64,000 nucleotides of DNA, from contig NZ_CP097800.1 of NCBI RefSeq assembly GCF_000612545.2, positions 4,340,501 to 4,404,500 of the forward strand. The letters run 5' to 3'. The first letter of the stretch is position 1, and the number at the start of each line of letters is the position of its first letter. Shown one piece after another: positions 567 through 35,459 of the stretch. A program made the position numbers and the translations under genes. The notes under the pieces are model-generated. The model was not told where the DNA came from and searched no databases. It was given only the letters and a program-made list of their open reading frames with translations. The stretch is from Streptomyces sp. PCS3-D2 (lineage in GTDB: Bacteria > Actinomycetota > Actinomycetes > Streptomycetales > Streptomycetaceae).

Positions 567-581
567 CTGACGGTTCGTCAG
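567..581. promoter_or_regulatory. Perfect palindromic operator CTGACG-GTT-CGTCAG (site 1)
   Basis: Two perfect 6-bp arms flank a 3-bp spacer, 21 bp upstream of the amidohydrolase ATG. A TANNNT hexamer (TACCGT, 590-595) follows 7 nt before that ATG, so the palindrome would cover the promoter core, which suits repression. The same palindrome recurs at 7495, 9386, 32594 and (one mismatch) 35445. The spacing and size fit a TetR-type dimer site; that assignment is inference. Confidence 0.75.
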
Positions 582-602
582 ATCAGCGCTACCGTATGAG
601 CC

Positions 603-1835
603 ATGGAGACCTTCCCCAAGATCATCTCGGTGGACGACCACACGGTTGAACCTCCCCACGTCTGGAGGGACCGGCTCCCGTCCAGGTACCGCGACACCGG
701 CCCCCGCGTCGTCCGTGCCCCGCTGAAGGAAATGACCTTCCTCGGCGGCAAGTTCGCCCCGGTCATGGGGGCCGCGGGCGACGACGGCCCGATCGGCGAC
801 TGGTGGGTGTACGAGGACCTGCACCGGCCGCTCACCCGGCTCGACACCGCCGTCGGGTACGACCGCGACGAGATCACCCTGGAAGTCATCACCTACGAGC
901 AGATGCGCCCCGGCTCCTTCTCGGTTCCCGAGCGGCTCGCCGACATGGACGTCAACCATGTCCAGTCGGCCCTCTGCTTCCCGACCTTCCCCCGCTTCTG
1001 CGGCCAGACCTTCACCGAGGCCAAGGACCGTGAGCTGGGGCTCCTGTGCGTACGGGCCTACAACGACTGGATGGTGGAGGAGTGGTGCGGCCCCGACGCC
1101 CGGGGCCGGCTCATCCCGCTCACCCTCATCCCGCTCTGGGACGCCCGGCTGGCCGCCGAGGAGGTCCGCCGCAACGCGGCGCGCGGCGTGCGCGCGGTCG
1201 CCTTCTCGGAGATACCCCCGCACCTGGGCCTGCCGTCCGTGCACACCGACGAGTGGGATCCCTTCCTTCGGGCGTGCGACGAGACCGGCACGGTCATCGC
1301 CATGCACATCGGCTCCTCGTCCCGGATGCCGTCCACCTCCGCGGACGCCCCGCCCGCGGTCGGCTCCACCATCACCTTCGCCAACTGCTGTTTCTCCATG
1401 GTCGACTGGCTGATGAGCGGCAAGTTCGAGCGCTTCCCCCATCTGAAGATCATGTACGCGGAGGGCCAGATCGGCTGGATCCCGTACATCCTCGAACGCG
1501 CGGACGTGGTCTGGGAGGAGAACCGCGGCTGGGGCGGGGTCGCCGACAAGGTGCTCCGTCCGCCGTCCGAGCTCTTCGCGGGGCACGTCTTCGGCTGCTT
1601 CTTCGACGACGCCTTCGGTCTGCAGAACCTCGACGCGATCGGCGCCGGCAACGTCCTCTACGAGACGGACTACCCCCACTCCGACTCCACCTGGCCGAAG
1701 TCGCGCGAGGTCGGGGAGGCGCAGATGGGGCACCTGGCGCCGGACACGGTGGACCGCATCGTGCGCGGCAACGCGATCGACCTGCTCGGCCTGACCCCGG
1801 ACGGCCTGTGGGCGGGACCGGGTTCGGGCGGCTGA
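603..1835 (+). CDS. Amidohydrolase-2 family TIM-barrel metal hydrolase or decarboxylase
   Basis: A 410-residue cytosolic protein of the COG2159 amidohydrolase-2 family, which includes aminocarboxymuconate-semialdehyde decarboxylase and related metal-dependent decarboxylases and hydrolases. Visible marks are the N-terminal metal-site strand IISVDDHTVEPP, a histidine strand VIAMHIGSSSRM near residue 235 and the C-terminal ETDYPHSDSTWPKS near residue 355, where the conserved aspartate follows a typical TDYPH stretch. Length is normal for the family. The start at 603 has no clear Shine-Dalgarno sequence but lies 7 nt after a TACCGT hexamer, as in a leaderless mRNA. The operator at 567-581 puts it in the same putative regulon as the F420-type oxidoreductases at 7.6 and 9.4 kb. 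The substrate cannot be read from the sequence. Confidence 0.85.
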   Translation: METFPKIISVDDHTVEPPHVWRDRLPSRYRDTGPRVVRAPLKEMTFLGGKFAPVMGAAGDDGPIGDWWVYEDLHRPLTRLDTAVGYDRDEITLEVITYEQMRPGSFSVPERLADMDVNHVQSALCFPTFPRFCGQTFTEAKDRELGLLCVRAYNDWMVEEWCGPDARGRLIPLTLIPLWDARLAAEEVRRNAARGVRAVAFSEIPPHLGLPSVHTDEWDPFLRACDETGTVIAMHIGSSSRMPSTSADAPPAVGSTITFANCCFSMVDWLMSGKFERFPHLKIMYAEGQIGWIPYILERADVVWEENRGWGGVADKVLRPPSELFAGHVFGCFFDDAFGLQNLDAIGAGNVLYETDYPHSDSTWPKSREVGEAQMGHLAPDTVDRIVRGNAIDLLGLTPDGLWAGPGSGG

Positions 1836-1845
1836 CCCCGGTCGG

Positions 1846-3102
1846 TCAGGCCGGTGTCCGGCGGGCCGTGACCCCGCCCGTGCCCTCGCCCTCGCCCGCG
1901 TCCGTGTCCGTGTCCGCCGGCACGGTCACGAGCAGGAACGAGACGGCCAGGCCGGCCGCTGCGACGGCCGGCAGCAGCAGCGTGACGTCCACGAGGGCGA
2001 CGAGCCCGGCGCCCAGGGCCAGGGCCAGCGCGTTCGGTACGAAGACCAGGGTGTTGGCGGTGGCGGCGGTCCGGCCCACGGCGGAGTCCGGCACCTCGCG
2101 CTGCACGGCGGTCAGCACGGTGATCAGCACGCACGGCAGGCCCGCGCCGATCAGCGCGCTGCACACCAGGGCCGCGGCCTCGTACGGCAGCGCCCGCCCG
2201 CCGCACCCCAGCGCGAACAGGGCGGTGCCGGCCGCCGCGAACACGCGTGCCGGCAGGCGCCGCAGCAGCGGGCCCGCGACCAGCCCGCTCAGGACCGAAC
2301 CCGCACCCTGCACCGCGTACAGCACCCCCACGTGGGCGGGCGGCCGGCCGAGGACATCGTCGGCGACCGCGTAGACCAGCGCGCCGTTGATCCCGGCCAG
2401 GAACATCACGGCGGCGGCGGCCGACACCAGCGGGCGCAGCACCGGTGAACCCCACAGCTGCCGGCCGCCTTCCAGGGCCCGGGCGAAGCCGCCCGCCCGG
2501 GGCCCCGTGCGCTCGGGTGCGTCCCGGTCCACCCGCAGCAGCAGGAACAGGCCCGCCGCCAGTGCGAACGTCACCGCGTCGAGCAGGGCCACCGAGGCCC
2601 CGCCGAACCGGGTGAACAGGGCGGCGCCCGCCAGCGGCGCGAGGAGCTTCATGCTCTCGGCGGCCGTCATCCGCAACCCGTTGAAGTCGCCGAGGAGGCG
2701 GACGTCGACCGCCCTCGCCACCAGGGCGGCCTCGGCGGCCTCGTGGAGCGTGCCACAGAGCCCGTAGACGAGGAGCACGGCGAAGAGCAACCACACCCGG
2801 GAGGCCGAGTCGACGAGACACAGGGCGGGCAGCAGCGCGGCCATCACGAGGCAGGCGGCCACCAGCAGGGCCCGCCGCGGCAGCCGGTCGGCGAGCACTC
2901 CCAGCGCCGGCCCGGCGAGCACCGGCGCCCACAGGGCGAACACCGTCAGGGCCGCGAGGCTGTCCGATCCGGTGAGCGACTTCACCCAGACCCCGGCCAC
3001 CAGCCACATCGCCGTCGTGCCGAACCCGGACACCACCACCCCGAGCAGGTAGAGGCCCGCATTGCGGTCCCGCAGGACCCGTCCGCTTCCCCCATCGCGC
3101 AT
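1846..3102 (-). CDS. MFS transporter
   Basis: A 418-residue integral membrane protein with about twelve hydrophobic segments. It belongs to the major facilitator superfamily, closest in style to the MFS_3/EntS-like exporters. The loop after the second helix reads GVLADRLPRRALL, the usual MFS loop 2-3 signature. The acidic C-terminal tail after the last helix is low complexity. It starts at 3102, divergent from the secreted protease at 3283, and its stop lies 10 bp from the stop of the amidohydrolase, so the two genes converge. It is not preceded by the CTGACG palindrome and I see no link to that regulon. The transported compound is unknown; drug or metabolite efflux is the usual role. Confidence 0.85.
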   Translation of the reverse strand: MRDGGSGRVLRDRNAGLYLLGVVVSGFGTTAMWLVAGVWVKSLTGSDSLAALTVFALWAPVLAGPALGVLADRLPRRALLVAACLVMAALLPALCLVDSASRVWLLFAVLLVYGLCGTLHEAAEAALVARAVDVRLLGDFNGLRMTAAESMKLLAPLAGAALFTRFGGASVALLDAVTFALAAGLFLLLRVDRDAPERTGPRAGGFARALEGGRQLWGSPVLRPLVSAAAAVMFLAGINGALVYAVADDVLGRPPAHVGVLYAVQGAGSVLSGLVAGPLLRRLPARVFAAAGTALFALGCGGRALPYEAAALVCSALIGAGLPCVLITVLTAVQREVPDSAVGRTAATANTLVFVPNALALALGAGLVALVDVTLLLPAVAAAGLAVSFLLVTVPADTDTDAGEGEGTGGVTARRTPA

Positions 3103-3282
3103 GGTGCCAGCGTGCTTCTAAGGCATGCCCGCGCGGATCGGGCACCTGCCCTACACAGGCGGGCGCGGCGGAGCTGGCGCCGTGCGGGCGGTGACGGGCC
3201 GGTCACACAGGGGTCGTCGGGCGCCTTGCCGCCGGGCCCGCGGCCGGGGCATGCTTCGCCAGGGCACAGCGGAAGGATCATC

Positions 3283-4152: not shown

Positions 4153-4170
4153 TAGGGCTTGGTCAGGTTC
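4153..4170 (+). repeat. Left terminal inverted repeat of the IS701-family element
   Basis: TAGGGCTTGGTCAGGTTC pairs with the right end, which read on the minus strand is TAGTGCTTGGTCAGGTCC; the mismatches are at positions 4 and 17. Confidence 0.85.
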
Positions 4171-4217: not shown

Positions 4218-5483
4218 GTGACGCCTGAGGACTTGGCCGCGGTGCGGTGTGATCTGGAGGATTTCGCGGCGGAGGTTTTCGAGCCGTTCGCGCGGAATGA
4301 TCAGCGTCGGTGGGGGCGGGTCTACCTGCGTGGGCTGCTGACCGACGGGCAGCGCAAGTCGGTCGAGCCGATGGCCGCCCGGCTGGGCGAGGACGGGAAC
4401 CGTCAGGCCCTGGCCCACTTCATCACCACCAGTCCGTGGGATCCGGCGCATGTGCGGGCCCGGCTGGCCTGGAGGATGGAAAGGGCGATCCGGCCCACCG
4501 TGCTGGTCTTCGACGACACCGGGTTCCTCAAGGACGGCAATGCCTCGGCGTGTGTGTCGCGGCAGTACACCGGCACCGCGGGCAAGGTCACCAACTGCCA
4601 GGTGGGCGTCTCCCTGCACATGGCTTCGGATCATGCCTCGGCGGCGGTCGACTGGCGGCTGTTCCTGCCCGAGACCTGGGCGCCCGGGTCGGTGAAGGCG
4701 GATCCGGACAAGGTCGCCCGCCGCACCGCCTGCGGTATCCCCGACGACATCGGGCATGTGGAGAAATGGCAGCTGGCCCTGGACATGCTGGATGAGACCC
4801 GCTCGTGGGGCATCGAGGTGCCGCTGGCCATTGCGGACGCCGGATACGGCGACGCCGCGGCCTTCCGGCACGGCCTGCAGGCCCGCGGCCTCAACTACGT
4901 CGTGGGCATCTCCACCACCCTCTCGGCCCAGCCCGGCCCCGCGGTGCCGGTCGCCGAGCCGTACTCCGGGACCGGGCGCCCGCCGGTGGCGAAGTACCCC
5001 GACAAGCCGCAGTCGGTGAAACAGCTGGTCATCGCGGCCGGCCGGAAGGCGGCGAAGCCGGTGCAGTGGCGTGAGGGATCCCGGCCCGGCACGGGCCGCA
5101 GCGGCTTCAAGCGGATGTACTCGCGGTTCGTGGCCTTGCGGATCCGGCCTGCCGGACGCGAGGTCCGCCAGACTGTTGACGGACCGGAACTGCCGGAGTG
5201 CTGGCTCCTGGCCGAGTGGCCAGCAGGCCAGGCCGAGCCGGTCCAGTTCTGGCTCTCCGACCTGCCCGCCGACACCCCGCTGACCACCCTGGTCCGCCTG
5301 GCCAAGCTCCGCTGGCGCATCGAACACGACTACCGCGAGATGAAGCAGGCCCTGGGCCTGGCCCACTTCGAGGGCCGCACCTGGAACGGCTGGCACCACC
5401 ACGTCACCCTCGTCTCCGTCGCGCACGCCTTCTGCACCCTGCAACGACTGGCCAGAGCCCCAAAAGACACGGCGCTGGCCTGA
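4218..5483 (+). CDS. IS701-family DDE transposase; C-terminal tail in the -1 frame
   Basis: A 421-residue transposase that cuts and joins the element ends. The DDE pattern is visible: Asp99/100 in LVFDDTGFLKDG, Asp207 in IADAGYGD and Glu369 in LRWRIEHDYREMKQ. The zero-frame product ends at the TGA at 5481-5483. Directly before it, the bases C-CCA-AAA (about 5459-5465) form a canonical X-XXY-YYZ slippery heptamer in the zero frame. A -1 slip there leads into a frame open to 5584 that encodes LTLYRIIRELQ and ACPTCHRDIPTP, which resembles the usual C-terminus of this family; the -1 stop lies inside the right inverted repeat. So this is either a programmed frameshift or a small deletion. The short form keeps the whole catalytic core. 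Confidence 0.88.
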   Translation: MTPEDLAAVRCDLEDFAAEVFEPFARNDQRRWGRVYLRGLLTDGQRKSVEPMAARLGEDGNRQALAHFITTSPWDPAHVRARLAWRMERAIRPTVLVFDDTGFLKDGNASACVSRQYTGTAGKVTNCQVGVSLHMASDHASAAVDWRLFLPETWAPGSVKADPDKVARRTACGIPDDIGHVEKWQLALDMLDETRSWGIEVPLAIADAGYGDAAAFRHGLQARGLNYVVGISTTLSAQPGPAVPVAEPYSGTGRPPVAKYPDKPQSVKQLVIAAGRKAAKPVQWREGSRPGTGRSGFKRMYSRFVALRIRPAGREVRQTVDGPELPECWLLAEWPAGQAEPVQFWLSDLPADTPLTTLVRLAKLRWRIEHDYREMKQALGLAHFEGRTWNGWHHHVTLVSVAHAFCTLQRLARAPKDTALA

Positions 5484-7494: not shown

Positions 7495-7511
7495 CCTGAC
7501 GATCCGTCAGG
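7495..7511. promoter_or_regulatory. Perfect palindromic operator CCTGACG-ATC-CGTCAGG (site 2)
   Basis: Perfect 7-bp arms with a 3-bp spacer, 60 bp upstream of the first LLM oxidoreductase. It is the same palindrome class as sites 1, 3, 4 and 5. Confidence 0.78.
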
Positions 7512-7571: not shown

Positions 7572-8519
7572 ATGGCGCGCGTGTTTCCGGAAGGTCGGCT
7601 GGTCTACGGGATGCAGCTCCCGGTCCAGTCGCAGAGCACCCTCTACGCCGAACCCTGGGAGGCATCGGCCGGAGCCGCCGATCTCGCCGAGATCGCGCGG
7701 GCCGCCGACCGGTCCGGCTTCGGCTACCTGGCCACCTGCGACCACGTGGCGATCCCGCGGCGCCTCGCGGGAGCCATGAGTACCGTCTGGTACGACCCGG
7801 TGGCCACCCTCTCCTTCCTCGCCGGGGTCACCGAGCGGGTCCGGCTGCTGAGCCACGTGGCGATACTCGGCCTGCGCCACCCGCTGGTCAGCGCCAAGCA
7901 GTACGCCACCCTCGACCACCTCTCCGGCGGCCGGCTGATCCTCGGCGTCGGCGCCGGCCATGTGGCGGAGGAGTTCGAGGTCCTCGGCGCGGACTTCGCG
8001 CGCCGCGGCGCCGTGCTCGACGAGACCCTCGACGCGCTGCGGGTGGCGCTCGGGCCCGAGGAGTACCCGGAGTTCGAGGGCGGGCGGTTCTCCTTCCGGG
8101 ATCTCGGGCAGCGGCCCCGGCCCGCGCAGAAGCGGATCCCCGTCTGGGTGGGCGGCTCCTCGCCCGCCGCCGTCCGCCGGGCCGCCGTCCGCGGGGACGG
8201 CTGGCTCCCGCAGGGCGACCCGCGCGACCGGCTCCCGGAGCAGATCGCCCGTATCGCACGGCTGCGCGCGGAGGCCGGTGTCACCGGCCCCTTCGAGGTC
8301 GGCGCGATCACCGAGGCGCTGTACGTCGGCGAGCCCGGCTGGGACACCGGCCGCCGCACCCTCACCGGCAAGGCGGAGGCCCTCGCGGAGTCCCTGCGCG
8401 AGTACGGGGCGCTCGGCGTGGACCAGATCCAGGTCCGTTTCCGCAGCCGCGACCGCGCCGAGCTCGTCGATCAGATCGCCGCCTTCGGGGCCGAAGTGGC
8501 CCCGCACCTCAACGACTAG
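7572..8519 (+). CDS. LLM-class F420-dependent oxidoreductase
   Basis: A 315-residue luciferase-like monooxygenase-fold enzyme. The marks are the early strand and helix AAADLAEIARAADRSGFGYLAT, the LLSHVAILGLRHP strand, the YATLDHLSGGRLILGVGAGH signature and the late PVWVGGSSPAAVRRAA strand where phosphate groups bind. Proteins with this pattern in F420-producing actinobacteria are usually F420-dependent dehydrogenases or reductases; the cofactor is inferred, and supported by fbiC in the same window. The ATG at 7572 follows GAAGGTGAGG. Its stop overlaps the AGGAG of the SDR at 8530, so the two are one transcription unit behind the operator at 7495. Confidence 0.87.
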   Translation: MARVFPEGRLVYGMQLPVQSQSTLYAEPWEASAGAADLAEIARAADRSGFGYLATCDHVAIPRRLAGAMSTVWYDPVATLSFLAGVTERVRLLSHVAILGLRHPLVSAKQYATLDHLSGGRLILGVGAGHVAEEFEVLGADFARRGAVLDETLDALRVALGPEEYPEFEGGRFSFRDLGQRPRPAQKRIPVWVGGSSPAAVRRAAVRGDGWLPQGDPRDRLPEQIARIARLRAEAGVTGPFEVGAITEALYVGEPGWDTGRRTLTGKAEALAESLREYGALGVDQIQVRFRSRDRAELVDQIAAFGAEVAPHLND

Positions 8520-8529
8520 GAGCACGGGC

Positions 8530-9315
8530 ATGGGCAAGCTGGACGGGCGCGTCGTCGTCATCACCGGTGCGGCGCGCGGCCAGGGCGAGCAGGAGGCCCG
8601 GCTCTTCGCCGCCGAGGGTGCGAGGGTGCTCCTCGGGGACGTGCTGGACGAGCAGGGCGCGGCCGTGGCCCAGGAGATCGGCGAGGACCGGGCCCGGTAC
8701 GTGCGGATGGACGTGCGCCGGGAGGAGGACTGGGCGGCGGCCGTCGCCGCCGCGAAGGAGTCCTTCGGTCGGATCGACGGCCTGGTCAACAACGCGGGCA
8801 TCCTGCGCTTCAACGAGCTGGCCTCGACCCCGCTGGAGGAGTTCCGGCAGGTGGTCGAGGTCAACCAGGTGGGCGCCTTCCTCGGTATCAAGACCGTGGC
8901 GCCCGAGATCGAGGCGGCCGGCGGCGGCACCATCGTCAACACTTCCTCCTACACCGGCCTGACGGGCATGGCGTACGTCGGCGCCTATGCCGCGACCAAG
9001 GCGGCCGTCTTGGGTCTGACCCGGGTGGCCGCGTTGGAGCTGGCGGGCAGGGGGATCCGGGTCAACGCGATGTGCCCGGGCGCGGTGGACACCCCGATGG
9101 CCAATCCCGGCCTGCTGGACCCGGCGAACACCACCGACGAGGCCCGCGAGGCCATGGCGGAGCTCTACCGGCGGGTGGTCCCGATGGGGCGGGTGGGGCA
9201 GCCGGAGGAGATCGCCCGGCTGGCGCTCTTCCTGACCGGCGAGGACTCCTCGTACATCACCGGCCAGCCGTTCGTCATCGACGGCGGCTGGATGGCGGGG
9301 GTCAGCGTCCTGTAG
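8530..9315 (+). CDS. SDR-family oxidoreductase, 3alpha/20beta-hydroxysteroid-dehydrogenase-like
   Basis: A 261-residue classical short-chain dehydrogenase that uses NAD(P) to interconvert an alcohol and a ketone. Visible are the glycine motif TGAARGQG, the acidic end of beta-2 (LLGDVLDE), NNAG, and the catalytic Tyr153 and Lys157 in YAATK. The C-terminal VIDGGWMAG is typical. The overall pattern resembles the Streptomyces 3alpha,20beta-hydroxysteroid dehydrogenase, but the family is broad and a steroid substrate is only a guess. The ATG at 8530 uses an AGGAG at 8518-8522 that overlaps the stop of the upstream LLM gene, so translation is probably coupled. It likely works on the same pathway as the two LLM enzymes beside it. 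Confidence 0.9.
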   Translation: MGKLDGRVVVITGAARGQGEQEARLFAAEGARVLLGDVLDEQGAAVAQEIGEDRARYVRMDVRREEDWAAAVAAAKESFGRIDGLVNNAGILRFNELASTPLEEFRQVVEVNQVGAFLGIKTVAPEIEAAGGGTIVNTSSYTGLTGMAYVGAYAATKAAVLGLTRVAALELAGRGIRVNAMCPGAVDTPMANPGLLDPANTTDEAREAMAELYRRVVPMGRVGQPEEIARLALFLTGEDSSYITGQPFVIDGGWMAGVSVL

Positions 9316-9325: not shown

Positions 9326-9340
9326 CTGATGGGGCGTCAG
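9326..9340. promoter_or_regulatory. Degenerate palindrome CTGATG-GGG-CGTCAG
   Basis: One mismatch in one arm, 46 bp upstream of the perfect site 3. It may be a second, weaker site at the same promoter, giving a tandem operator in front of the LLM gene at 9415. Confidence 0.45.
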
Positions 9341-9385: not shown

Positions 9386-9402
9386 TCTGACGCAACGTCA
9401 GA
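9386..9402. promoter_or_regulatory. Perfect palindromic operator TCTGACG-CAA-CGTCAGA (site 3)
   Basis: Perfect 7-bp arms and a 3-bp spacer, ending 12 bp before the GTG at 9415. A bound protein would block the promoter or initiation region directly. Confidence 0.78.
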
Positions 9403-9414: not shown

Positions 9415-10545
9415 GTGAACCCCTTGGAATTCGGGCTCTTCGTGCAGGGATACGTGCCTGAGGCGCGGTCCAAGGTCGACCCCGAGGCGGAGCACAAGGC
9501 GCTGGTCGAGGAGACCGAGTACGTCATCCAGGCCGACAAGTCCGGCTTCAAGTACGCCTGGGCCTCCGAGCACCACTTCCTGGAGGAGTACTCGCACCTG
9601 TCGGCGAACGAGGTGTTCCTCGGCTACCTCGCGCACGCCACCGAACGCATCCACCTCGGCTCCGGCATCTTCAACCCGCTCGCCCCGGTGAACCACCCGG
9701 TCAAGGTGGCCGAGAAGGTCACCATGCTCGACCACCTCTCCCGGGGCCGCTTCGAGTTCGGCACCGGCCGTGGCGCGGGCAGCCACGAGATCCTCGGCTT
9801 CCTGCCCGGTATCGAGGACATGGACGCCACCAAGGAGATCTGGGAGGAGACCATCGCGGAGTTCCCCAAGATGTTCCTCCAGGAGGAGTACGAGGGGTTC
9901 CAGGGCAAGCACTGGTCGCTGCCGCCGCGCAAGGTCTTCCCCAAGCCGTACGGCAAGGCCCACCCGGCCATGTGGTACGCCGCCGGGTCGCCCTCCTCCT
10001 ACGCGATGGCGGCCAGGAAGGGCCTCGGCGTGCTGGGCTTCAGCGTGCAGAAGGTCTCCGACATGGAATGGGTCCTCGACCAGTACAAGACGGCCATCAG
10101 GGAGGCGAAGGCGATCGGCGCCTTCGTCAACGACAACGTGATGGTCACTTCCACCGCGATCTGCGCCGAGACCCACGACAAGGCCGTGGAGATCGCCGTC
10201 AACGCCACCATGAACCGCTTCCAGTCGCTGGTCTTCCGCTACCACGACACCTTCCCGCGGCCCGAGGCGATCCCCCAGTGGCCCGAGACCCTGCCGGAGT
10301 ACAACGCGGAGATCATCGAGCTCCTGATTGCCGAGGAGCTCCTCATCTGCGGCGACCCGTCGGAGGTCAGGGCCCAGTGCGAGCGCTGGGAGCAGGCGGG
10401 CGCGGACCAGCTCTCCTTCGGCCTGCCGACCGGCGTCTCCTACGAGGACACGATGACCACGATCAAGCTGATCGGCGAGCACGTGATCCCGCACATCGAC
10501 ACCGACCCGGTCCACCGTACGACCCGCTTCCGGCAGTCCGCCTGA
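9415..10545 (+). CDS. LLM-class flavin/F420-dependent oxidoreductase
   Basis: A 376-residue luciferase-like enzyme, longer than the one at 7572 and of a different subgroup. Visible are EFGLFVQGYVPEA at the N-terminus, YAWASEHHFLEEYSHLS (the His-His pair typical of bacterial-luciferase-like folds), HLGSGIFNPLAPVNHPVK and MLDHLSRGRFEFGTGRGAG. It should oxidise or reduce a small organic substrate with F420 or flavin. The GTG at 9415 has AGAGG only 4 nt away; a TTG at 9424 (product starting MEFGLF) would have better spacing and may be the true start. It stands behind operators at 9326 and 9386. The gap to the deacylase-like gene is 172 bp with no obvious terminator, so readthrough is possible. 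Confidence 0.87.
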   Translation: MNPLEFGLFVQGYVPEARSKVDPEAEHKALVEETEYVIQADKSGFKYAWASEHHFLEEYSHLSANEVFLGYLAHATERIHLGSGIFNPLAPVNHPVKVAEKVTMLDHLSRGRFEFGTGRGAGSHEILGFLPGIEDMDATKEIWEETIAEFPKMFLQEEYEGFQGKHWSLPPRKVFPKPYGKAHPAMWYAAGSPSSYAMAARKGLGVLGFSVQKVSDMEWVLDQYKTAIREAKAIGAFVNDNVMVTSTAICAETHDKAVEIAVNATMNRFQSLVFRYHDTFPRPEAIPQWPETLPEYNAEIIELLIAEELLICGDPSEVRAQCERWEQAGADQLSFGLPTGVSYEDTMTTIKLIGEHVIPHIDTDPVHRTTRFRQSA

Positions 10546-10717: not shown

Positions 10718-12457
10718 ATGCTCGACCACCTGATCAAGGGCGCGACCGTCGTGGACGGCACCGGCGCCCCCGCCCGCGTCGCCGACCTCGGCATACGCGA
10801 CGGCCGCATCGCCGTCATCGCCGCGCCCGGCACCGTCACCGAAGGGGCCCGCACCAGCGAGGACGCCACCGGCCTCGTCCTGACCCCCGGCTTCGTCGAC
10901 CCGCACACGCACTACGACGCCCAGCTCTTCTGGGACCCCTACGCCACGCCCTCCATGAACCACGGCGTCACCACCGTCGCCGGCGGGAACTGCGGCTTCA
11001 CCCTGGCCCCGCTCAACCCGGCCCGCCCCGAGGACGCCGACTACACCCGCCGCATGATGAGCAAGGTCGAGGGCATGGCCCTCAAGGCCCTTGAGGAGGG
11101 CGTCGACTGGACCTGGTCCACCTTCGGCGAATACCTCGACGCCCTGGAGGGCCGGATCGCCGTGAACGCCGGGTTCATGGTCGGGCACTGCGCCCTGCGC
11201 CGCCACGTCATGGGCGAGGACGCCGTCGGCGGACAGCCCACCCCCGAGCAGATGCGGCAGATGCTCGACCTCTTCCACGACGCCATGAACGCCGGCGCCT
11301 GGGGCCTGTCCACCACCCAGTCCGCCACCCACTCCGACGGCGCGGGCGCGCCCGTCGCCTCCCGCCACGCCCGGCCCGCCGAACTCCTCGCCCTCTCCCG
11401 CGCCGTCGCCGAACACGAGGGCACCCAGCTCGAAGCGATCGTCGCCGGCTGCCTCGACCAGTTCTCCGACGAGGAGATCGACCTCTTCGTCGACATGAGC
11501 GCCGCCGCCGGACGGCCCCTGAACTGGAACGTCCTCACCATCGACGCCGCCGTCCCCGAACGGGTTCCGCGCCAGCTGATCCCCAGTGAGCGGGCCCGCA
11601 AGGCCGGCGGCCGCATCGTCGCACTCACCATGCCGATCCTCACCCCCATGAACATGTCGCTCGGCACCTTCTGCGCACTGAACCTCATCCCCGGCTGGGG
11701 CGAGGTCCTCGCCCGGCCCGTCCCCGAACGGATCGCCCGACTCCGCGACCCCGCCGTACGCGCCGAGATGCTGCGCCGCGCCGACAGCAAGGAGGCCGGC
11801 GTCTTCCGCCGCCTCGCAGACTTCGGCCGCTATGTCATCGGCGACACCTACAGCAAGGAGAACGAGGGCCTCTCCGGGCGGGTCGTGAACGACATCGCTG
11901 CCGAACGCGGCCAGGACCCCTTCCAGTGTCTGGTGGAGATCTGCGCCAACGACGACCTGCGCACCGTGCTCTGGCCGATGCCCACCGACAACGACCCGGC
12001 GAGCTGGGCCCTGCGCGCCGAGACCTGGCAGCACGAGGACGTCCTGCTCGGCGGCTCCGACGCCGGAGCCCACCTGGACCGGATGTGCGGCGCCCCGTAC
12101 ACGACCCGCTTCCTCGGCGACTGCCTGCGCGGCCGCAAGCTCGTGCCGCTGGAGGAGGCGGTACGGATGCTCACGGACGACCCGGCCCGGCTGTTCGGGC
12201 TGCGCGAGCGCGGCCGGCTCACCGAGGGCTACCACGCCGACCTGGTCCTCTTCGACCCCGAACGGATCGACGCGGGCCCGGCCACCCTCGTCCATGACCT
12301 GCCCGGCGACAGCCCCCGCCTCGACGCCCGGGCCGTCGGCATCGTCTCGGTGCGGGTCAACGGCGTGGAGACCGTCCGCGACGACGAGGTGACCGGGGCG
12401 GTCCCCGGCATCGTGCTCCGGTCGGGCCGGGACACGAGGACGGTGAGCACCCGATGA
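10718..12457 (+). CDS. N-acyl-D-amino-acid-deacylase-like amidohydrolase
   Basis: A 579-residue metal-dependent hydrolase of the urease/dihydroorotase superfamily, D-aminoacylase branch. Visible are the N-terminal beta-sandwich start (LIKGATVVDGTGAP), the metal motif PGFVDPHTHYDAQ, the GGNCGF stretch with the cysteine that bridges metals in D-aminoacylases, GHCALRRHVMG, and the late metal aspartate in GGSDAGAH. Related proteins act on N-acyl-D-amino acids, dihydropyrimidines or other cyclic and acyclic amides, so the substrate is open. The ATG at 10718 follows AGAAGGG. Its stop overlaps the ATG of the aldehyde dehydrogenase (ATGA), giving tight coupling. Context suggests an amide-cleavage step followed by aldehyde oxidation in the LLM/SDR pathway. 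Confidence 0.87.
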   Translation: MLDHLIKGATVVDGTGAPARVADLGIRDGRIAVIAAPGTVTEGARTSEDATGLVLTPGFVDPHTHYDAQLFWDPYATPSMNHGVTTVAGGNCGFTLAPLNPARPEDADYTRRMMSKVEGMALKALEEGVDWTWSTFGEYLDALEGRIAVNAGFMVGHCALRRHVMGEDAVGGQPTPEQMRQMLDLFHDAMNAGAWGLSTTQSATHSDGAGAPVASRHARPAELLALSRAVAEHEGTQLEAIVAGCLDQFSDEEIDLFVDMSAAAGRPLNWNVLTIDAAVPERVPRQLIPSERARKAGGRIVALTMPILTPMNMSLGTFCALNLIPGWGEVLARPVPERIARLRDPAVRAEMLRRADSKEAGVFRRLADFGRYVIGDTYSKENEGLSGRVVNDIAAERGQDPFQCLVEICANDDLRTVLWPMPTDNDPASWALRAETWQHEDVLLGGSDAGAHLDRMCGAPYTTRFLGDCLRGRKLVPLEEAVRMLTDDPARLFGLRERGRLTEGYHADLVLFDPERIDAGPATLVHDLPGDSPRLDARAVGIVSVRVNGVETVRDDEVTGAVPGIVLRSGRDTRTVSTR

Positions 12458-13917
12458 CCGCTCAACCCCTCTACATCGGCGGCGAGTGGGTGGAGCCGGC
12501 CGGCGGGCACTACGAGGTGGTCAACCCGGCCGACGCGTCGGTGGTCGGGCTCGCCCCCGAGGCCTCGCGCGCACAGGTCGCCGACGCGGCCCGCGCCGCA
12601 GCCGAGGCCTTCGACAGCTGGTCGCGCACGACACCGCAGGCCCGGGCGGCGATCCTCGACCGCGCGGCCGACATCATGCAGCGGGAGTTCGAGCCGTGGA
12701 CGGCCCTCGCGCAGGCGGAGACCGGCGCGCCGACCGGGATCGCACGCGGCATGCAGGTCGGCGTCGGCGTCGCCCGCTTCCGCAGGTACGCCAAGGGCGC
12801 CCTGGAGCCCGTCGAGAAGGGGCTGCCGCCCCAGGTCACCGAGGCCGGCCCGATGGGGCGGGCGGGCATCCTGGGCGCGCTGGAGGTCCGCCAGCCGGTC
12901 GGCGTGGTCACCTGCATCACCTCCTACAACAACCCGTGGGCGAACCCGGCAGGCAAGGTGGCGCCCGCCCTCGCCATGGGCAACACGGTCGTCGTCAAAC
13001 CGGCCCCGCAGGACCCGCTGTCCGTCTTCCGGATGGCGCAGGCGCTGCACGAGGCCGGGGTCCCGGCGGGCGTCGTCAACGTCGTGTCCGGTCAGTCGGT
13101 GGAGGTCGGCGAGGCCGCCGTGGACTCCCCGCACGTGGACATGGTGTCCTTCACCGGCTCCACCGGCGTCGGACAGCGCATCGCGGAGGTCTGCGGCCGC
13201 ACGATGAAGCGGCAGCTGATGGAACTCGGCGGCAAGGGCGCGGCCGTCGTCATGGACGACGCCGACCTGGACGCGGCGGTGAGGGGCATCGGCACCACCT
13301 TCTCCTTCTACTCCGGCCAGATCTGCACCGCCCCGACCCGGGTCATCGTCCACCGGTCGGTGTACGGGCAGCTCATCGAGAAGCTCACCGGATACCTGTC
13401 CTTCATGAAGGTCGGCGACCCGGCGGCGGCCGGGACGGTGGTCGGCCCGGTGATCTCGGCGGCGCACCGCGACCGGGTGGAGTCGTACGTCGAGCTGGGG
13501 AAGAAGGAGGGGGCGCGGATCGCGTACGGCGGCGAGCGTCCGGTGGTCGGGGACGGGAAGGGCTTCTACGTGGCCCCGACCCTGCTCGTGGACTGCACGA
13601 ACGACATGCGGGTGGTCCGCGAGGAGATCTTCGGCCCGGTCGTCGTGGTCGTCCCCTTCGACGGCGATGAGGACGAAGCGGTCCGACTGGCCAACGACAG
13701 CGACTTCGGCCTGCTCAGCTACGTGTGGTCCGGTGACGCGGCGCGCGCCTTCCGCATTGCGCGGCGGCTGCGCGCGGGCGGGGTCGGCGTGAACACCATC
13801 GGCCGCAACATGGAGGCCCCGTTCGGCGGCTTCAAGCGCAGCGGGGTCGGCCGGGACGTCGGCTCGTACGCCCTGCACGCCTACAGCGAGATCCAGTCGA
13901 TCGTCTGGACGACGTAG
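12454..13917 (+). CDS. NAD(P)-dependent aldehyde dehydrogenase
   Basis: A 487-residue enzyme of the aldehyde dehydrogenase superfamily, which oxidises an aldehyde to the acid. Visible are the asparagine region TSYNNPWANPAGK, the Rossmann motif FTGSTGVGQ, general-base Glu257 in MELGGKG, catalytic Cys291 in GQICTAP, and EEIFGPVVVV near residue 390. Length is normal. It overlaps the deacylase-like gene by 4 bp (ATGA) and ends the plus-strand cluster that starts at 7572; a hairpin at 13932-13959 follows. The specific aldehyde is unknown; it may be the product of the preceding amidohydrolase or oxidoreductases. Confidence 0.93.
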   Translation: MTAQPLYIGGEWVEPAGGHYEVVNPADASVVGLAPEASRAQVADAARAAAEAFDSWSRTTPQARAAILDRAADIMQREFEPWTALAQAETGAPTGIARGMQVGVGVARFRRYAKGALEPVEKGLPPQVTEAGPMGRAGILGALEVRQPVGVVTCITSYNNPWANPAGKVAPALAMGNTVVVKPAPQDPLSVFRMAQALHEAGVPAGVVNVVSGQSVEVGEAAVDSPHVDMVSFTGSTGVGQRIAEVCGRTMKRQLMELGGKGAAVVMDDADLDAAVRGIGTTFSFYSGQICTAPTRVIVHRSVYGQLIEKLTGYLSFMKVGDPAAAGTVVGPVISAAHRDRVESYVELGKKEGARIAYGGERPVVGDGKGFYVAPTLLVDCTNDMRVVREEIFGPVVVVVPFDGDEDEAVRLANDSDFGLLSYVWSGDAARAFRIARRLRAGGVGVNTIGRNMEAPFGGFKRSGVGRDVGSYALHAYSEIQSIVWTT

Positions 13918-25425: not shown

Positions 25426-26286
25426 TTAGAGGTACTGGGCGAACCCGTCCAGGGCGCGCAGGGTCTCCGGCTCGGGGGCCGAGGGGAGCTGGAGGACGAC
25501 CTCCTCGATGCCGAGGTCGGCGTAGTGGGCGAGCTTGCCCGCACTGGGGTGGACGGCGTACGGGACCACCTGGAGGGACTTCGGGTCACGGCCGGCGGTC
25601 TCCCACACCTGGCGCAGCACCGGCAGGGACTCGGTCAGGCCGCCGCCGCCGATCGGCAGCCAGCCGTCGGCGTGGTCGGCGATCGCGGCGAAGAGCTTCG
25701 GGCCGGCCGCTCCGCCGATCAGGGTGCGGGGCCCGTGCAGGGCCGAGCCGGGGCCCAGTTCGCGCGGGGCCTGGACCGGCTTCGGGTGGGCGCTGCTGGC
25801 CCGGACGGAGCAGTACTGGCCCACGTACGCGGTCGGCTCGGGCGCCCACAGGGCGCGCATCAGGGCCATCCGGTCGCGGACCAGGTCGCGGCGGGTGCGC
25901 CACTCGACGCCGTGGTCGGCGGCCTCCTCGACGTTCCAGCCGTAGCCGATGCCCAGGGTGAAACGGCCGCCGGAGAGGTGGTCGAGGGTCGCGACCTGTT
26001 TCGCCAGGCCGATGCCGTCGTGCTGTGCCACCAGGGTGATGCCGGTGCCCAGGTGCAGCCGCTGGGTGACCGCGGCGGCCTGGCCGAGGGCGATGAAGGG
26101 GTCGAGGGTGCGCCCGTACATCTCGGGGAGTTCGCCGCCCATCGGGGCGGGGGTCTCGCGGGAGACCGGGATGTGGGTGTGCTCGGGGAGGTAGAGGCCC
26201 GAGAAGCCGCGTTCCTCCAGGCTGCGGGCGAGACGGGCGGGGGAGACGGTGCGGTCGGTGAGGAAGACGGTCGTGGCGATCCGCAT
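25426..26286 (-). CDS. LLM-class F420-dependent oxidoreductase
   Basis: A 286-residue luciferase-like enzyme. Visible are RIATTVFLTDRTVSP at the N-terminus, GLYLPEHTHIPVSRETP, RLHLGTGITLVAQHDGIGLAKQVATLDHL, and GGRFTLGIGYGWNVEEAADHG, the signature of the TIGR03619-like F420 group. The ATG at 26286 is chosen over the GTG at 26298 because GGAGGT lies 10 nt before it. A degenerate CTGACG-type site lies upstream at 26351, so it may belong to the same regulon as the enzymes at 7.6-9.4 kb. Cofactor F420 is inferred from the family and from fbiC at 29.2 kb. Confidence 0.86.
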   Translation of the reverse strand: MRIATTVFLTDRTVSPARLARSLEERGFSGLYLPEHTHIPVSRETPAPMGGELPEMYGRTLDPFIALGQAAAVTQRLHLGTGITLVAQHDGIGLAKQVATLDHLSGGRFTLGIGYGWNVEEAADHGVEWRTRRDLVRDRMALMRALWAPEPTAYVGQYCSVRASSAHPKPVQAPRELGPGSALHGPRTLIGGAAGPKLFAAIADHADGWLPIGGGGLTESLPVLRQVWETAGRDPKSLQVVPYAVHPSAGKLAHYADLGIEEVVLQLPSAPEPETLRALDGFAQYL

Positions 26287-26350: not shown

Positions 26351-26365
26351 TTGAGGGTGCGTCAG
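26351..26365. promoter_or_regulatory. Degenerate palindrome TTGAGG-GTG-CGTCAG
   Basis: The right arm is perfect and the left arm has two mismatches, 65 bp upstream of the LLM start. Weak on its own; its position before an LLM gene is what makes it worth noting. Confidence 0.3.
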
Positions 26366-31781: not shown

Positions 31782-32564
31782 TCATCTCATCAGCTCACCG
31801 GCATTGACCAGCAGTGATTGGCCGGTAATCGCCCGAGCGCGGTCGGAGGCGAGGAAGACGGCGGCGTCGGCGACGTCCCCGTCCGTGGCGAGGTCGGGCA
31901 ATGCCATGCGCGCGGTGAGACGGGCGCGCACCTCGGCCTCGGGCACGCCCTCGGCGTGGGCGGTGAAGGTGACGAAGGCCTGGACGGGAGGGCCCCACAT
32001 CCAGCCGGGCAGCACGGTGTTGACACGGATGCGGTGCGGGCCGAGCTCGCGGGCCATCGAGTACATGGCGGAGGTCAGGGCCCCCTTGGAGGCGGCGTAG
32101 GCGGCCTGCTGCACCTCGTTGGGCGCCGCGACGGCGGACTGCGTCCCGATGATGACCACGGATCCGCCGCCCTCCTTGAGGGCGGGCAGGCAGGCCCGGG
32201 TCATGCGCAGGGTGCCCAGCAGGTTGACGTCGATGATCTGCTGCCAGGTCCCGAAGTCGGCATCCTCCAGCCCACCGAAGTACGAGTCCCAGGCGGCGAC
32301 GTGCACGACGGCGTCGACGCCCCCGAACCGCTCCACGGCCAGGGCGGCGAGGGCCTCGCACTGCGCCTCGTCTCCGATGTCGGTCGGGCGGTGGGCGGTG
32401 TGGGCGCCGCCGGGGTCGATTTCGGCGGCGGACTTGGCCAGACGCGCGGGGGTCCGCGCCCCGAGGACGGCGTTTCCGCCGTCCCGCACCACGGCGGCGG
32501 CCACCTGATGTCCGAGCCCGGCCCCGACGCCGGAGACGATGACGGTTTTCCCTCGCAGCAGCAC
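31782..32564 (-). CDS. SDR-family oxidoreductase upstream of fbiC
   Basis: A 260-residue classical short-chain dehydrogenase. Visible are the glycine motif SGVGAGLG, catalytic Ser143, Tyr156 and Lys160 (YAASK), and the C-terminal [12 protein letters not shown]. The usual NNAG is replaced by VHVAAWDS, which places it in a divergent subgroup. The GTG start at 32564 follows GGAGGT with 6-nt spacing. A perfect CTGACG-ATC-CGTCAG operator lies 30 bp upstream of the start. The stop is 40 bp from the fbiC start in the same direction, so the two probably form an operon. The substrate is unknown; the regulon context suggests the same pathway as the SDR at 8530. Confidence 0.88.
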
Positions 32565-32593
32565 GGTGTACCTCCGGGCGGGCGCAGACGTAT

Positions 32594-32608
32594 CTGACGA
32601 TCCGTCAG
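32594..32608. promoter_or_regulatory. Perfect palindromic operator CTGACG-ATC-CGTCAG (site 4)
   Basis: It is identical in arms and spacer to site 2 and sits directly before the Shine-Dalgarno region of the SDR-fbiC unit. Confidence 0.78.
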
Positions 32609-32847: not shown

Positions 32848-34170
32848 ATGGCGCTCGCGCACCCTCCGGGCGCGCCCGCACGCGCCCGGCTGTTCGCGCT
32901 GCTGGCACTCCTGTGCGCGCTGGGCGCCGGGGTGGCGCTGGTGGCGGTCGGCGGCGGGCTGGTCGTCGTCGTGGTCGGGGCGGCCGGAGCGGCGCTCACC
33001 GCCGTGGGCACGTGGTGGGTGGTCGCCCACCGCGGGCCGGTCCGGCTGGCCGGGGGCGTGCTGGCCGTGGCCGCGCCGGTGGCCGTCCTCGTCATCTACG
33101 CCCGGGCCGACCTGTGGCCCACGGTGCTGGCCGCCATCGTGCTGTGGGTGGCCGCCGTCGCGTGCGCACGGACGGCGCTGCGCGCGGCGCGGCCACCCGC
33201 CGGCATGCGGGCCGTCGCCGCCGAGCGCCCCCGGCACCCGGTCCTGATCATGAACCCGAAGTCCGGCGGCGGGAAGGTCGGCCGCTTCGGCCTCGCCGAG
33301 AAGGGCGAGGCGCTCGGCGCCCGGGTGGTGCTACTGGACGGCGACGTCACCACGGACGTCGCCGCCGTCGCCCGCCGGGCGGTCGCCGAGGGGGCGGACC
33401 TGCTCGGGGTGGCCGGCGGCGACGGCACCCAGGCCCGGGTGGCCGAGGTGGCGGTCGAGTACGGCCTGCCGTTCCTGGTGATCTCCGCAGGGACCAGGAA
33501 CCACTTCGCCATGGACCTCGGGCTGGACCGCGAGGACCCGGTGCGGTGCCTGGACGCGCTGGCGGACGGCGAGGAGCTCAGCGTCGACCTGGGTTCCGTG
33601 GGCGGCCGCGCCTTCGTGAACACGGCCTCCTTCGGCGTCTACGCGGAGGTCGTCCAGCGCCCCGAGTACCGGGACGCCAAGGCGGACTCGGCCCTGAACG
33701 CCCTGCCCGACCTGCTCCGCGGCGACGCCGGCCGCACCCTCGACGCGACGGCCGACGGGAAGACCCGCCTGGAGGCCCAGCAGGCCCTGCTGATCAGCAA
33801 CAACCCCTACTCGTCGCCCGACCCGACGGCCGTGGGCGCCCGCCGGTCCCGCCTCGACCTCGGCGTGCTCGGGGTCGTGGGGCTCCGGGTGGACAACGCC
33901 GCCCAGGCGGCCCACATCGCGCTGCGGGGCGCACGGGGGACGGGCCTGCGCATCCTGACCTCCCGGCAGGTCGTCATCGGCTCGGAGGCGGAGAGCATCC
34001 CCGTGGCCGTGGACGGCGAGCCCCTGACCCTGCCCACGCCCGTCACCTGCTCCATCCGGCCGGGTGCCCTGCGCGTACGGGTGCCCAGGGACCGCCCCGG
34101 AGCTCCGACGGCCGGTCCGCCCATGGAGTGGCGCGACGTCCTCGCGCTGGCCCTCAACCGGCTGTGGTGA
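32848..34170 (+). CDS. Diacylglycerol-kinase-family lipid kinase
   Basis: A 440-residue protein. The first 125 residues hold four to five hydrophobic segments (LFALLALLCALGAGVALVAV and following). The catalytic domain then begins with HPVLIMNPKSGGGK, and the nucleotide-binding GVAGGDGTQ lies near residue 195. The later substrate-side sequence is NTASFGVYAEVV and LISNNPYSSPDP. The family phosphorylates diacylglycerol, sphingoid bases or related lipids; the membrane-anchored form is common in actinobacteria. The ATG at 32848 follows GGAGG at 32832; other in-frame starts upstream lack this. A 14-bp duplication surrounds the stop codon. Confidence 0.87.
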   Translation: MALAHPPGAPARARLFALLALLCALGAGVALVAVGGGLVVVVVGAAGAALTAVGTWWVVAHRGPVRLAGGVLAVAAPVAVLVIYARADLWPTVLAAIVLWVAAVACARTALRAARPPAGMRAVAAERPRHPVLIMNPKSGGGKVGRFGLAEKGEALGARVVLLDGDVTTDVAAVARRAVAEGADLLGVAGGDGTQARVAEVAVEYGLPFLVISAGTRNHFAMDLGLDREDPVRCLDALADGEELSVDLGSVGGRAFVNTASFGVYAEVVQRPEYRDAKADSALNALPDLLRGDAGRTLDATADGKTRLEAQQALLISNNPYSSPDPTAVGARRSRLDLGVLGVVGLRVDNAAQAAHIALRGARGTGLRILTSRQVVIGSEAESIPVAVDGEPLTLPTPVTCSIRPGALRVRVPRDRPGAPTAGPPMEWRDVLALALNRLW

Positions 34171-34199
34171 GGCAGCGGGACGCCGACCGGCTGTGGTGA
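34157..34199 (+). repeat. 14-bp direct repeat around the lipid kinase stop codon
   Basis: ACCGGCTGTGGTGA occurs at 34157-34170 and 34186-34199, a 29-bp period. The copy beyond the stop looks like a small tandem duplication of the gene end. Confidence 0.7.
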
Positions 34200-34355
34200 A
34201 GAGGACGGGACGGAGTCGCGGCGGACGCGGGGAGTACGCGTGGGCGATCGCCCCGGGATGCCCGGCCTCCGGGGCGGCGTCACAATGGGCCTGAGCCCGG
34301 GGAGCGCCTGGTGCGCACGCCGTTGCCGCCGGGCGTGCGCGGAGAGGAGACAGCC

Positions 34356-34532
34356 GTGGAGGACTTCGACTCCCGGCGGAGCAGCCCCCTTTCACGCCAC
34401 GAGGCCGCCGGTCGGCAGTCCGCGCCCGCCCGGCCGCCGCGCCACGGCGGCAGTGCCGTCGAACCGGAACCCGGCCCCGGGACGGCGGCCGAGCCCGAGC
34501 GGCCGACCACGTCGGCCGGGGCCGTGTCCTAG
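34356..34532 (+). CDS. Small Pro/Arg-rich protein coupled to the membrane protein gene
   Basis: A 58-residue open frame starting with GTG at 34356 after a good AGGAG (6-nt spacing). Its stop shares one base with the GTG of the next gene (TAGTG). The product (MEDFDSRRSSPLSRHEAAGR and on) is disordered in character, without cysteines or a hydrophobic segment. It may be a genuine small protein, or a leader frame that couples ribosomes into the membrane protein gene. No family is recognised. Confidence 0.45.
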   Translation: MEDFDSRRSSPLSRHEAAGRQSAPARPPRHGGSAVEPEPGPGTAAEPERPTTSAGAVS

Positions 34533-35155
34533 TGTCCCCGGCCGGCAGCCCGGAACCCCGCCGGGGTCCCGGGCGGGAGCCCTCCCCGGACCAGGCCTCG
34601 GGCGAGGCGTCGGAACGGACTTCGGAACAGCCTTCGGAGCGCACCGCGAAGGGTGCTCCGGACGGCGCTCCGGACGGCGCTCCGGAGAAGGTCCGCGGCG
34701 ACTACACGGGCGCCGTCTACGGCTCGCTGCTCGCCGCCTCCGTCGTCGTCGGCGCAGGGACCCTCGGCCCGTTCCCGCGGCTGCAGCTCGTCGTGCTGCT
34801 GCTGGGCACCGGCATCGTCTTCTGGGCCGCGCACGTCTTCGCCCGCCTCTTCGGCGCCCGCTTGGCGGGCCGACTGAGCTGGACCGTCATTCGCAGTACG
34901 GCCCGGGAGGAGCGCCCGATCATCGAGGCGGCCGTCCCGCCGGCCGCCGCCGCGGCCATCACGCCGCTGTTCGGCCTGGGGCCGCAGGGCATCGCATGGC
35001 TGGCACTCCTGGTCGCCCTCGCCGGTCAAGTCGGCTGGGCGACGGTGGCCGCCCGACGCGCCGGCGCCTCCCGTCGGCTGATGGTGATCGCCGGCGCCGT
35101 CAACCTCTTCCTCGGCCTGCTCATCGTGCTCCTCAAGGCCGGGCTCCAGCACTAG
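34532..35155 (+). CDS. Integral membrane protein of unknown function
   Basis: 207 residues: a 55-residue hydrophilic N-terminus rich in Ser, Glu and Pro (with a GAPDGAPDGAPE repeat), then five hydrophobic segments (YGSLLAASVVVGAGTLGPF, LQLVVLLLGTGIVFWAAHVF, PPAAAAAITPLFGLG, GIAWLALLVALAGQVGW, LMVIAGAVNLFLGLLIVLL). Between the second and third is REERPIIEAAVPP. No transport or enzyme motif is seen. The GTG start overlaps the stop of the small frame at 34356, so expression is coupled to it. Confidence 0.7.
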   Translation: MSPAGSPEPRRGPGREPSPDQASGEASERTSEQPSERTAKGAPDGAPDGAPEKVRGDYTGAVYGSLLAASVVVGAGTLGPFPRLQLVVLLLGTGIVFWAAHVFARLFGARLAGRLSWTVIRSTAREERPIIEAAVPPAAAAAITPLFGLGPQGIAWLALLVALAGQVGWATVAARRAGASRRLMVIAGAVNLFLGLLIVLLKAGLQH

Positions 35156-35381
35156 AGGTCCGCGGCCGCGGCGTCCCGCCGTACTCCGCCAGTGCCGACC
35201 CGAGGCGGCCGAGCCCCTCGGCGATCTCCCGCGGGGTGTGCGTCGTGAAGGACAGCCGCAGCGTGCGAGGGTCCGGGACGCCCGTGTGGAAGGGAGCGCC
35301 GGGGACGGATGGCAGCGGGCACGGAAGCTCCTCGGGGAGGCGGGTGCGCGCATCGTAGCGAGAGAAGCGTGTAGGTGGCAT
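35133..35381 (-). pseudogene. C-terminal remnant of a class I/II aminotransferase-like gene
   Basis: The minus-strand frame contains GVPDPRTLRLSFTTHTPREIAEGLGRLGSAL, shown here as TLRLSFTTHTPREIAEGLGR. That is the usual end of PLP-dependent aminotransferases of the 2-aminoadipate/MocR kind. The PLP lysine, the large domain and any start are missing, and the upstream residues do not continue the fold. It overlaps the end of the membrane protein gene by 23 bp. It is best read as a decayed fragment left by a deletion. Confidence 0.5.
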
Positions 35382-35444
35382 GAATAAATCGGGGGGTGGA
35401 CATCCGTGCTTCCTTTCCGCCGAATCCGGCCGCCCTCTCCCGAT

Positions 35445-35459
35445 CTGACGCTGTGTCAG
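35445..35459. promoter_or_regulatory. Palindromic operator CTGACG-CTG-TGTCAG (site 5, one mismatch)
   Basis: It has the same arm and spacer layout as sites 1-4, with T for C at one arm position. It ends 13 bp before the ATG of the EthD-like gene. Confidence 0.68.

Follow-up and report, generated by a model that had tools for sequence, protein, structure and literature searches.

The locus considered here raises the question of which protein reads a short palindrome, CTGACG-N3-CGTCAG (CTGACGNNNCGTCAG), that recurs upstream of genes in a 64-kb stretch of the Streptomyces sp. PCS3-D2 genome, and what the genes marked by it have in common. This stretch of 64,000 nucleotides, referred to as the window, corresponds to C1:4340501-4404500; seven-digit positions below are those of contig C1 and shorter ones those of the window. 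An initial annotation, made from the sequence of the window, had proposed a dispersed regulon extending over 36 kb. The reading favored here, with a probability of roughly 0.77, is that the TetR-family gene at C1:4325430-4326077 would encode an autoregulated repressor of about 20 transcription units, which would be released by a coenzyme A (CoA) thioester of the pathway it controls and would govern the breakdown of sterol-like or polycyclic isoprenoid compounds. The operator, the assignment of the regulator, the conservation and the families of target genes were computed.

A scan of the window identified perfect copies of the palindrome at 567..581 (CTGACGGTTCGTCAG, 28.9 bits, in the gap between an AfsR-like gene on the minus strand and an Amidohydro_2 gene on the plus strand), 7496..7510 (CTGACGATCCGTCAG, 23.3 bits), 9387..9401 (CTGACGCAACGTCAG, 30.2 bits) and 32594..32608 (CTGACGATCCGTCAG, 26.7 bits, upstream of an SDR gene). 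Copies with one mismatch are located at 9326..9340 (CTGATGGGGCGTCAG, 18.3 bits, the weaker and upstream one of a pair) and 35445..35459 (CTGACGCTGTGTCAG, 23.2 bits). From a first-order Markov model of the window, 0.015 perfect copies would be expected against the four observed. When up to three mismatches were allowed there was no enrichment in the window (60 found, 71 expected), so the signal is carried only by near-perfect copies and the counts at this tolerance were rejected as evidence. All six perfect or one-mismatch copies are intergenic according to gene calls made with an in-house script rather than a standard caller, in a window that is 80% coding, which bears out the earlier remark that the copies lie outside genes. 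The palindrome is real.

Some details of the initial annotation required correction. Of the five copies it regarded as good, four are perfect but the one at 35445 has a mismatch, and the positions given as 7495 and 9386 were one base low. Of its two weaker copies, that at 9326 stands, but the one at 26351 was dismissed as noise, having two mismatches and a score of 6.6 bits against 18.3-31.3 bits for the 16 sites of the cluster described below; the orthologous LLM gene had no upstream site of at most one mismatch in any of six genomes. Arms of 7 bp had been attributed to three of the five good copies; when the flanks are read, only 7496 and 9387 have them. The suggestion that the dyad is of a size suited to a TetR dimer is supported.

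A scan of the whole 7.63-Mb genome, which had been proposed as a check, returned 15 perfect copies versus one for the reversed pattern, and 78 versus 27 when one mismatch was permitted. Eight of the 15 perfect copies fall within 4314210-4373108, four of them to the left of the window. Together with eight one-mismatch copies, they form a 72-kb cluster (4303740-4375959) that extends past the left edge of the window and has 6 of its 16 sites inside it. All 16 sites are intergenic although the cluster is 88% coding. A 21-bp matrix was built from sites near the TetR gene in other Streptomyces and scanned over 153 kb (the afsK region), where, at a threshold of at least 17 bits, it returned precisely the 16 cluster sites; the reversed matrix had no match in the loci of the same genome that were scanned. 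Sites used for training had been chosen to differ from the core at one position at most, and only the flanks and spacer constitute independent information. In its extended form the consensus reads ATCTGACG-N3-CGTCAGAT; position -2 is A in 78% of sites and position -1 is T in 51%. The proposal of a single regulon is upheld, but it is mainly one 72-kb cluster reaching beyond the window, plus some remote promoters, and not a set dispersed over 36 kb. Of the seven remote perfect sites, 2240422 and 4501995 score below 12 bits and the latter lies within a gene. Two strong sites, a perfect one at C1:3494394 (29.4 bits) and another at 3498865 (24.1 bits), are 4.5 kb apart in a region with few called genes; the second is close to a long open frame and the pair may belong to a mobile element.

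The candidate regulator gene is on the minus strand inside the cluster, 14.4 kb left of the first base of the window. Its product matches TetR_N (PF00440, E 4.8e-6) and PF19352 (E 1.2e-73), and the predicted model of a 99% identical orthologue is predominantly helical with a mean pLDDT of 84.6. The annotation had found no TetR gene in the window, and none of the 85 TetR_N matches found (150 of 223 first-look candidates scored) lies within 4340501-4404500. It had also supposed that the regulator acts from elsewhere; the gene is indeed outside, but not far away. In a comparison of 84 of the 85 TetR_N positions, the one on contig C2 being left out, the candidate had seven perfect and seven one-mismatch sites within 30 kb, while the next best TetR had one and three. 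The gene at C1:4325430-4326077 very probably encodes the regulator. It adjoins kbpA- and afsK-like genes, which is the position of SCO4421 in Streptomyces coelicolor, and by this position it is very probably the SCO4421 orthologue.

An orthologue of the candidate was detected in all 37 same-genus genomes and all 14 genomes of family f3; at E 1e-20 the remaining ten genomes sampled gave none. Perfect copies of the palindrome number 2 to 32 in the f1 and f3 genomes and 0 to 2 in the other ten. Across 296 genomes sampled class-wide, copy number tracks the presence of the TetR gene within family f16 (6-14 copies in seven genomes with the gene; 0, 0, 0, 1 and 10 in five without; one-sided Mann-Whitney P 0.008) and within family f20 (1-9 copies in six genomes with the gene; 0-5 in 20 genomes without it or with a weak match; P 0.003). 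Four f20 genomes with weak TetR matches of 34-37% were counted as lacking it. The species compared are related, and genome counts are not independent events.

One suggested way of finding the regulator was to look for a TetR gene whose own promoter holds the site, and the candidate carries such a site as a degenerate, strongly conserved copy over its start codon. The start codon of the TetR gene is overlapped by CTGACGNCATGACAG in 58 of 59 same-genus genomes, the exception (L147) having a spacer one base longer, and in all of the 80 named Streptomyces loci. Related copies are present at or close to the TetR start in both f3 genomes read (CTGACGCCATGACAG in G038 and the poorer CTGACGGTATGACAC in G045), in both f16 genomes read (CTGACGCCCCGTCAC and CTGACGCCTCGTCAA) and in the one f14 genome read (CTGATGCCGCGTCAG). 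In both f20 genomes read, CTGACGCCCCGTCGG lies at the TetR start or close to it, 37 bp before the called gene in the case of G161, and family f15 has a half-site. The DNA upstream of the TetR start is strongly conserved in same-genus loci, and no ribosome site is evident by eye (L118, L121, L126 and other same-genus loci). Since TAAGCT stands six bases before the ATG in these loci, a leaderless TetR transcript with its start within the operator is suggested.

The sites are conserved along with the genes they precede. In 80 loci around the TetR gene from named genomes, all Streptomyces and the best 99% identical (1.37 Mb), there were 66 perfect and 242 one-mismatch copies versus 0 and 3 for the control; 302 of the 308 sites were intergenic and 76 of the 80 loci had at least one. 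In the 80 kb around the TetR gene in ten other genomes, sites were present in seven and absent from three; in G045, two of five sites near the TetR gene are inside genes. Upstream sites of at most one mismatch were then counted for those orthologues found in the 80-kb stretches. A site precedes the orthologues of Ltp2 (6/6), the adjoining acyl-CoA synthetase (5/6), an acyl-CoA dehydrogenase (5/5), a thiolase (4/4), a 744-aa CoA ligase (4/4), a flavin reductase (4/5) and a DoxX-like gene (3/3). Among the window genes, it precedes the orthologues of the amidohydrolase at 603 (4/4), the gene for a 285-aa protein (3/3) and the SDR gene at 31782 (3/4); the luciferase-like (LLM) gene at 9415 has its upstream site, paired at the same promoter, in three of four genomes. 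For the afsR-like gene, a site common to the amidohydrolase lies within 350 bp upstream in three of seven genomes, and no site with one mismatch or fewer was found upstream of kbpA-like (0/7) or afsK-like (0/8) orthologues.

The genes by the cluster sites encode two AMP-binding ligases, Amidohydro_2 proteins, a cyclase-type hydrolase, a flavin reductase, SDRs, an ATP-grasp/CoA-binding CoA ligase, thiolases, an F420H2 quinone reductase family protein and LLM oxidoreductases. Naming was by eye for the cluster's acyl-CoA dehydrogenases and hydratases and for the AfsS-like gene, and from domain content and position for the AfsR-, AfsK- and KbpA-like genes. At 4332748, a thiolase that matches 6ok1 (E 6e-100), a solved lipid-transfer protein which we take to be Ltp2, has a ChsH2-type protein as its neighbor. 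Remote sites precede genes for CYP125 (best PDB match E 2.5e-152), FadA5 (692 bits, cut-off 515) and an Rv3169-family protein (428 bits, cut-off 150), as well as an acyl-CoA dehydrogenase-like gene and, by eye, LLM genes. Another remote site precedes a two-domain acyl-CoA dehydrogenase gene, FadE34-like by eye, whose promoter also has a KstR motif, which suggests that steroid side-chain genes are under dual control. There, at C1:5404490-5404520 (L024), the CTGACG-type site (24.5 bits) is directly beside the KstR motif TGCAACGTGTTCTA. In family f16, the TetR orthologue itself adjoins SDR, hydratase and IpdA/IpdB-type genes (6co6_A E 5e-93, 6co6_B E 5e-69) with operator copies nearby, and the same was seen by eye in f14. 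IpdAB act in the degradation of steroid rings C and D, according to the accessible part of PMC5380842. The target set is wider than first listed and, as judged from the predicted products, points to steroid-like, CoA-linked catabolism.

Beyond these computed results, we infer repression, the ligand and the substrate. A TetR dimer would bind CTGACG-N3-CGTCAG shortly upstream of start codons in about 20 transcription units, that of its own gene included, and would repress them while bound; repression is likely because the sites lie shortly upstream of start codons. An intermediate of the pathway, a CoA thioester, would release the protein as in KstR2, for which the effector is given as HIP-CoA (PMC5380842, accessible part). 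Together, the controlled genes would make up a steroid-type, CoA-linked oxidative pathway composed of acyl-CoA synthetases, acyl-CoA dehydrogenases, hydratases, an Ltp2/ChsH2-type retro-aldolase, SDRs, LLM oxidoreductases and amidohydrolases, with CYP125 and FadA5 as remote members. Its substrate would be a sterol-like or other polycyclic isoprenoid compound.

A number of results weigh against this reading. Equal frequency in coding DNA had been named as an outcome that would refute the regulon, and while this does not apply to the cluster, 22 of the 53 remote one-mismatch sites are inside genes and 31 are intergenic; at 17 bits or more, 9 of 11 remote one-mismatch sites are intergenic. The operator of the TetR gene itself has two mismatches in the window genome and scores 9.5 bits. 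Of the window's three LLM genes, two have no conserved site, given that orthologues of the gene at 7572 had an upstream site in none of three genomes (the operator at 7496 is not conserved) and those of the gene at 25426 in none of six, and an FMO-like gene had one in only one of seven genomes. Seven of the 28 same-genus genomes in the class-wide sample keep the TetR gene with only 0-4 copies. Three genomes (G027, G010 and G031) are without most of the catabolic targets tested and all local sites, and have kept the TetR gene along with FMO-like, kbpA-, afsK- and afsR-like genes, and in two cases the LLM gene at 25426. Because the TetR gene is maintained in genomes with few or no sites, it may have another role. 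Deletion of SCO4421 (strain K319) gave no detected phenotype in the published study (PMC3878966).

The steroid character of the pathway is also subject to limits. The IpdA homologue of the window genome (62% identity) is encoded in a locus with a separate TetR gene, KstR2-like by eye, where 40 kb contained no CTGACG site with one mismatch or fewer. No match to KshA (PF19298) was obtained at E 0.001 in the window genome; among the 37 same-genus genomes, KshA exceeds the Pfam cut-off in nine, and E is below 1e-80 only in G012 and G023. The ipd-type (ring C/D) locus, at C1:5723155-5736573 (L295), is present despite the lack of a KshA match, and the genome holds homologues of CYP125, FadA5, Ltp2/ChsH2 and IpdA. 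Among the same-genus genomes, IpdA is missing from all five genomes with five or fewer sites and present in 29 of 32 with at least nine (Fisher P 1.3e-4, not corrected for phylogeny; a weak 32% match in G029 was taken as absence and G001 is 79% complete). Judged by its predicted enzymes, the pathway overlaps with steroid degradation in those of side-chain and ring C/D type, here without the classical ring-opening oxygenase. Since no KshA match was found in the window genome, a classical steroid is probably not what is degraded, and a different polycyclic isoprenoid is the best guess.

Other explanations of the sites must be set against this evidence. That the palindrome is a general chromosomal sign, such as a repeat, a nucleoid protein site or a hairpin, with its placement at promoters incidental, is hardly credible. 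It draws on five f15 genomes (G063, G085, G103, G119 and G135), each with 109-218 perfect copies versus 0-1 for the control; in the two for which spacers were counted, the spacer is nearly always three bases (218 of 220 copies in G135 and 135 of 145 in G063 among spacers of 0-8). Of 30 copies read in G063, 15 are inside called genes, a count to be added to those that oppose the regulon; most copies there have no A/T flanks by eye. A giant f15 regulon was rejected on the basis of these 15 copies and several others without a nearby gene start. Against the chromosomal sign stand the intergenic placement of the TetR-proximal copies in Streptomyces, their preferred A/T flanks, their position before orthologous genes and the covariation of copy number with the TetR gene within f16 and f20. 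It is also very improbable that the sites are read by a TetR other than the candidate; the foremost rival is a KstR-like protein whose gene, at C1:5392537-5393160, belongs to the steroid side-chain locus. No other TetR domain has a site with one mismatch or none within 1 kb (the two-mismatch start site of the candidate not being counted), and sites are found near this gene at CYP125/FadA5, LLM and FadE34-like promoters. However, the site near this gene is within its coding sequence and scores 1.6 bits, and the closest named solved relatives of the protein are KstR. Its locus contains three copies of TnnAACnnGTTnnA, the KstR motif, one of them directly beside the FadE34-like CTGACG site, and none is exact in the 153-kb afsK region. 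The KstR-like protein was rejected as the reader of the sites on account of the 1.6-bit coding site and the AAC-GTT motifs of its own in the locus.

A different role for the same protein is unlikely, namely that it serves mainly the AfsK-AfsR antibiotic cascade with the catabolic genes as secondary targets. This would fit the adjoining kbpA/afsK-like genes, the site shared by afsR and the amidohydrolase in three of seven genomes, and the persistence of TetR, kbpA-, afsK- and afsR-like genes in the three genomes without most catabolic targets. A TetR protein, SAV3818, may be an orthologue of the candidate. It is cited as a positive regulator of avermectin production in the accessible text of PMC3742746. 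In opposition to such a role, sites with one mismatch or fewer are absent upstream of kbpA and afsK orthologues as counted above, and in f14 and f16 the TetR gene is among ipd-type genes with no afsK-like gene by eye in the 11-20 kb read. The AfsK-AfsR-AfsS cascade has been described (PMC10972967, accessible part), and the perfect site in the afsR/amidohydrolase gap may allow a link to it. A broader proposal is a doubtful possibility: a widely conserved Streptomyces program for degrading a polycyclic isoprenoid without the KshA route, whose CoA-thioester signal would also tune AfsK-AfsR by way of that shared gap.

With catabolic repression by the candidate TetR as the preferred reading, the window genes next to the operators may be considered in turn. 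The initial annotation had placed the copies shortly upstream of amidohydrolase, LLM, SDR and EthD-like genes, and this placement is retained for six copies. The operator at 567 precedes a 410-aa Amidohydro_2 protein gene (603..1835, +), whose product matches DitZ (closest solved chain 8uyr, E 4e-55) and PtmU3; no paper on a protein named DitZ was found by literature search. Between this gene and the LLM operon, a 413-aa open reading frame (4242-5483) resembles an insertion sequence transposase by eye. The operator at 7496 is followed by genes for a 315-aa F420-dependent LLM class oxidoreductase (TIGR03619; 7572..8519, +) and a 261-aa SDR family oxidoreductase (8530..9315, +), which are probably co-transcribed. 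After the pair at 9326 and 9387 come genes for a 376-aa LLM oxidoreductase (9415..10545, +) with family matches under the NCBIfam cut-offs, a 579-aa amidohydrolase superfamily protein (10718..12457, +), also with matches under cut-offs and possibly in the same transcription unit, and a 487-aa aldehyde dehydrogenase (12454..13917, +). A 260-aa SDR of the PRK07890 subfamily is encoded at 31782..32564 (-), and the 285-aa protein at 35473..36330 (+), downstream of the operator at 35445, which had been called EthD-like has no Pfam or NCBIfam match to support that label.

The operator and regulon were not described in the open-access literature searched, which is weak evidence given that most subscription journals are outside its scope. 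There was no description in the accessible portions of PMC3878966, PMC3742746, PMC3897704, PMC10972967, PMC3160421, PMC3511530, PMC4810484 and PMC5380842, and that of PMC3511530 mentions neither SCO44 gene numbers nor CTGAC. An operator and about 20 target units are now assigned to a TetR found in 37 of 37 same-genus genomes, and a little-studied regulator beside the antibiotic-control gene afsK gains a testable job. A steroid-like catabolic pathway is indicated in Streptomyces; steroid pathways were reported as absent from 55 of 57 genomes of this genus (PMC4810484, accessible part). A link of lipid or terpenoid catabolism to the AfsK-AfsR cascade becomes directly testable, since the S. coelicolor deletion strain K319 exists (PMC3878966, accessible part).

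Several known systems provide a basis for comparison. EthR is among the closest solved chains to the candidate, in the DNA-binding domain only, with E about 1e-5. SCO4421 is likewise a TetR gene close to afsK; it differs in being described as a sporulation-expressed gene, active in spore chains and lower in a whiA mutant, and the accessible text mentions no operator or regulon for it (PMC3878966). The KstR regulon for the sterol side chain and rings A-B is similar in that CYP125/FadA5 and FadE34-like promoters carry CTGACG sites. Unlike the proposed system, KstR has another operator, and the window genome encodes a distinct KstR-like protein that falls below the NCBIfam KstR cut-off (196 of 280 bits); the candidate TetR has no match to the NCBIfam KstR equivalog at E 0.001. 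The KstR2 operator, which we take to be AnCAAGnnCTTGnT, is unlike the proposed one and had no match in the ipd and KstR loci, the only loci scanned for it, and the Streptomyces ipd loci read have a KstR2-like TetR of their own by eye, none of them near the proposed regulator. Nevertheless, the KstR2 regulon for HIP and steroid ring C-D degradation in mycobacteria and rhodococci presents the same TetR control of CoA-linked steroid-type genes, and the likeness extends to families f16 and f14, where the new TetR is itself beside ipdA/ipdB-type genes.

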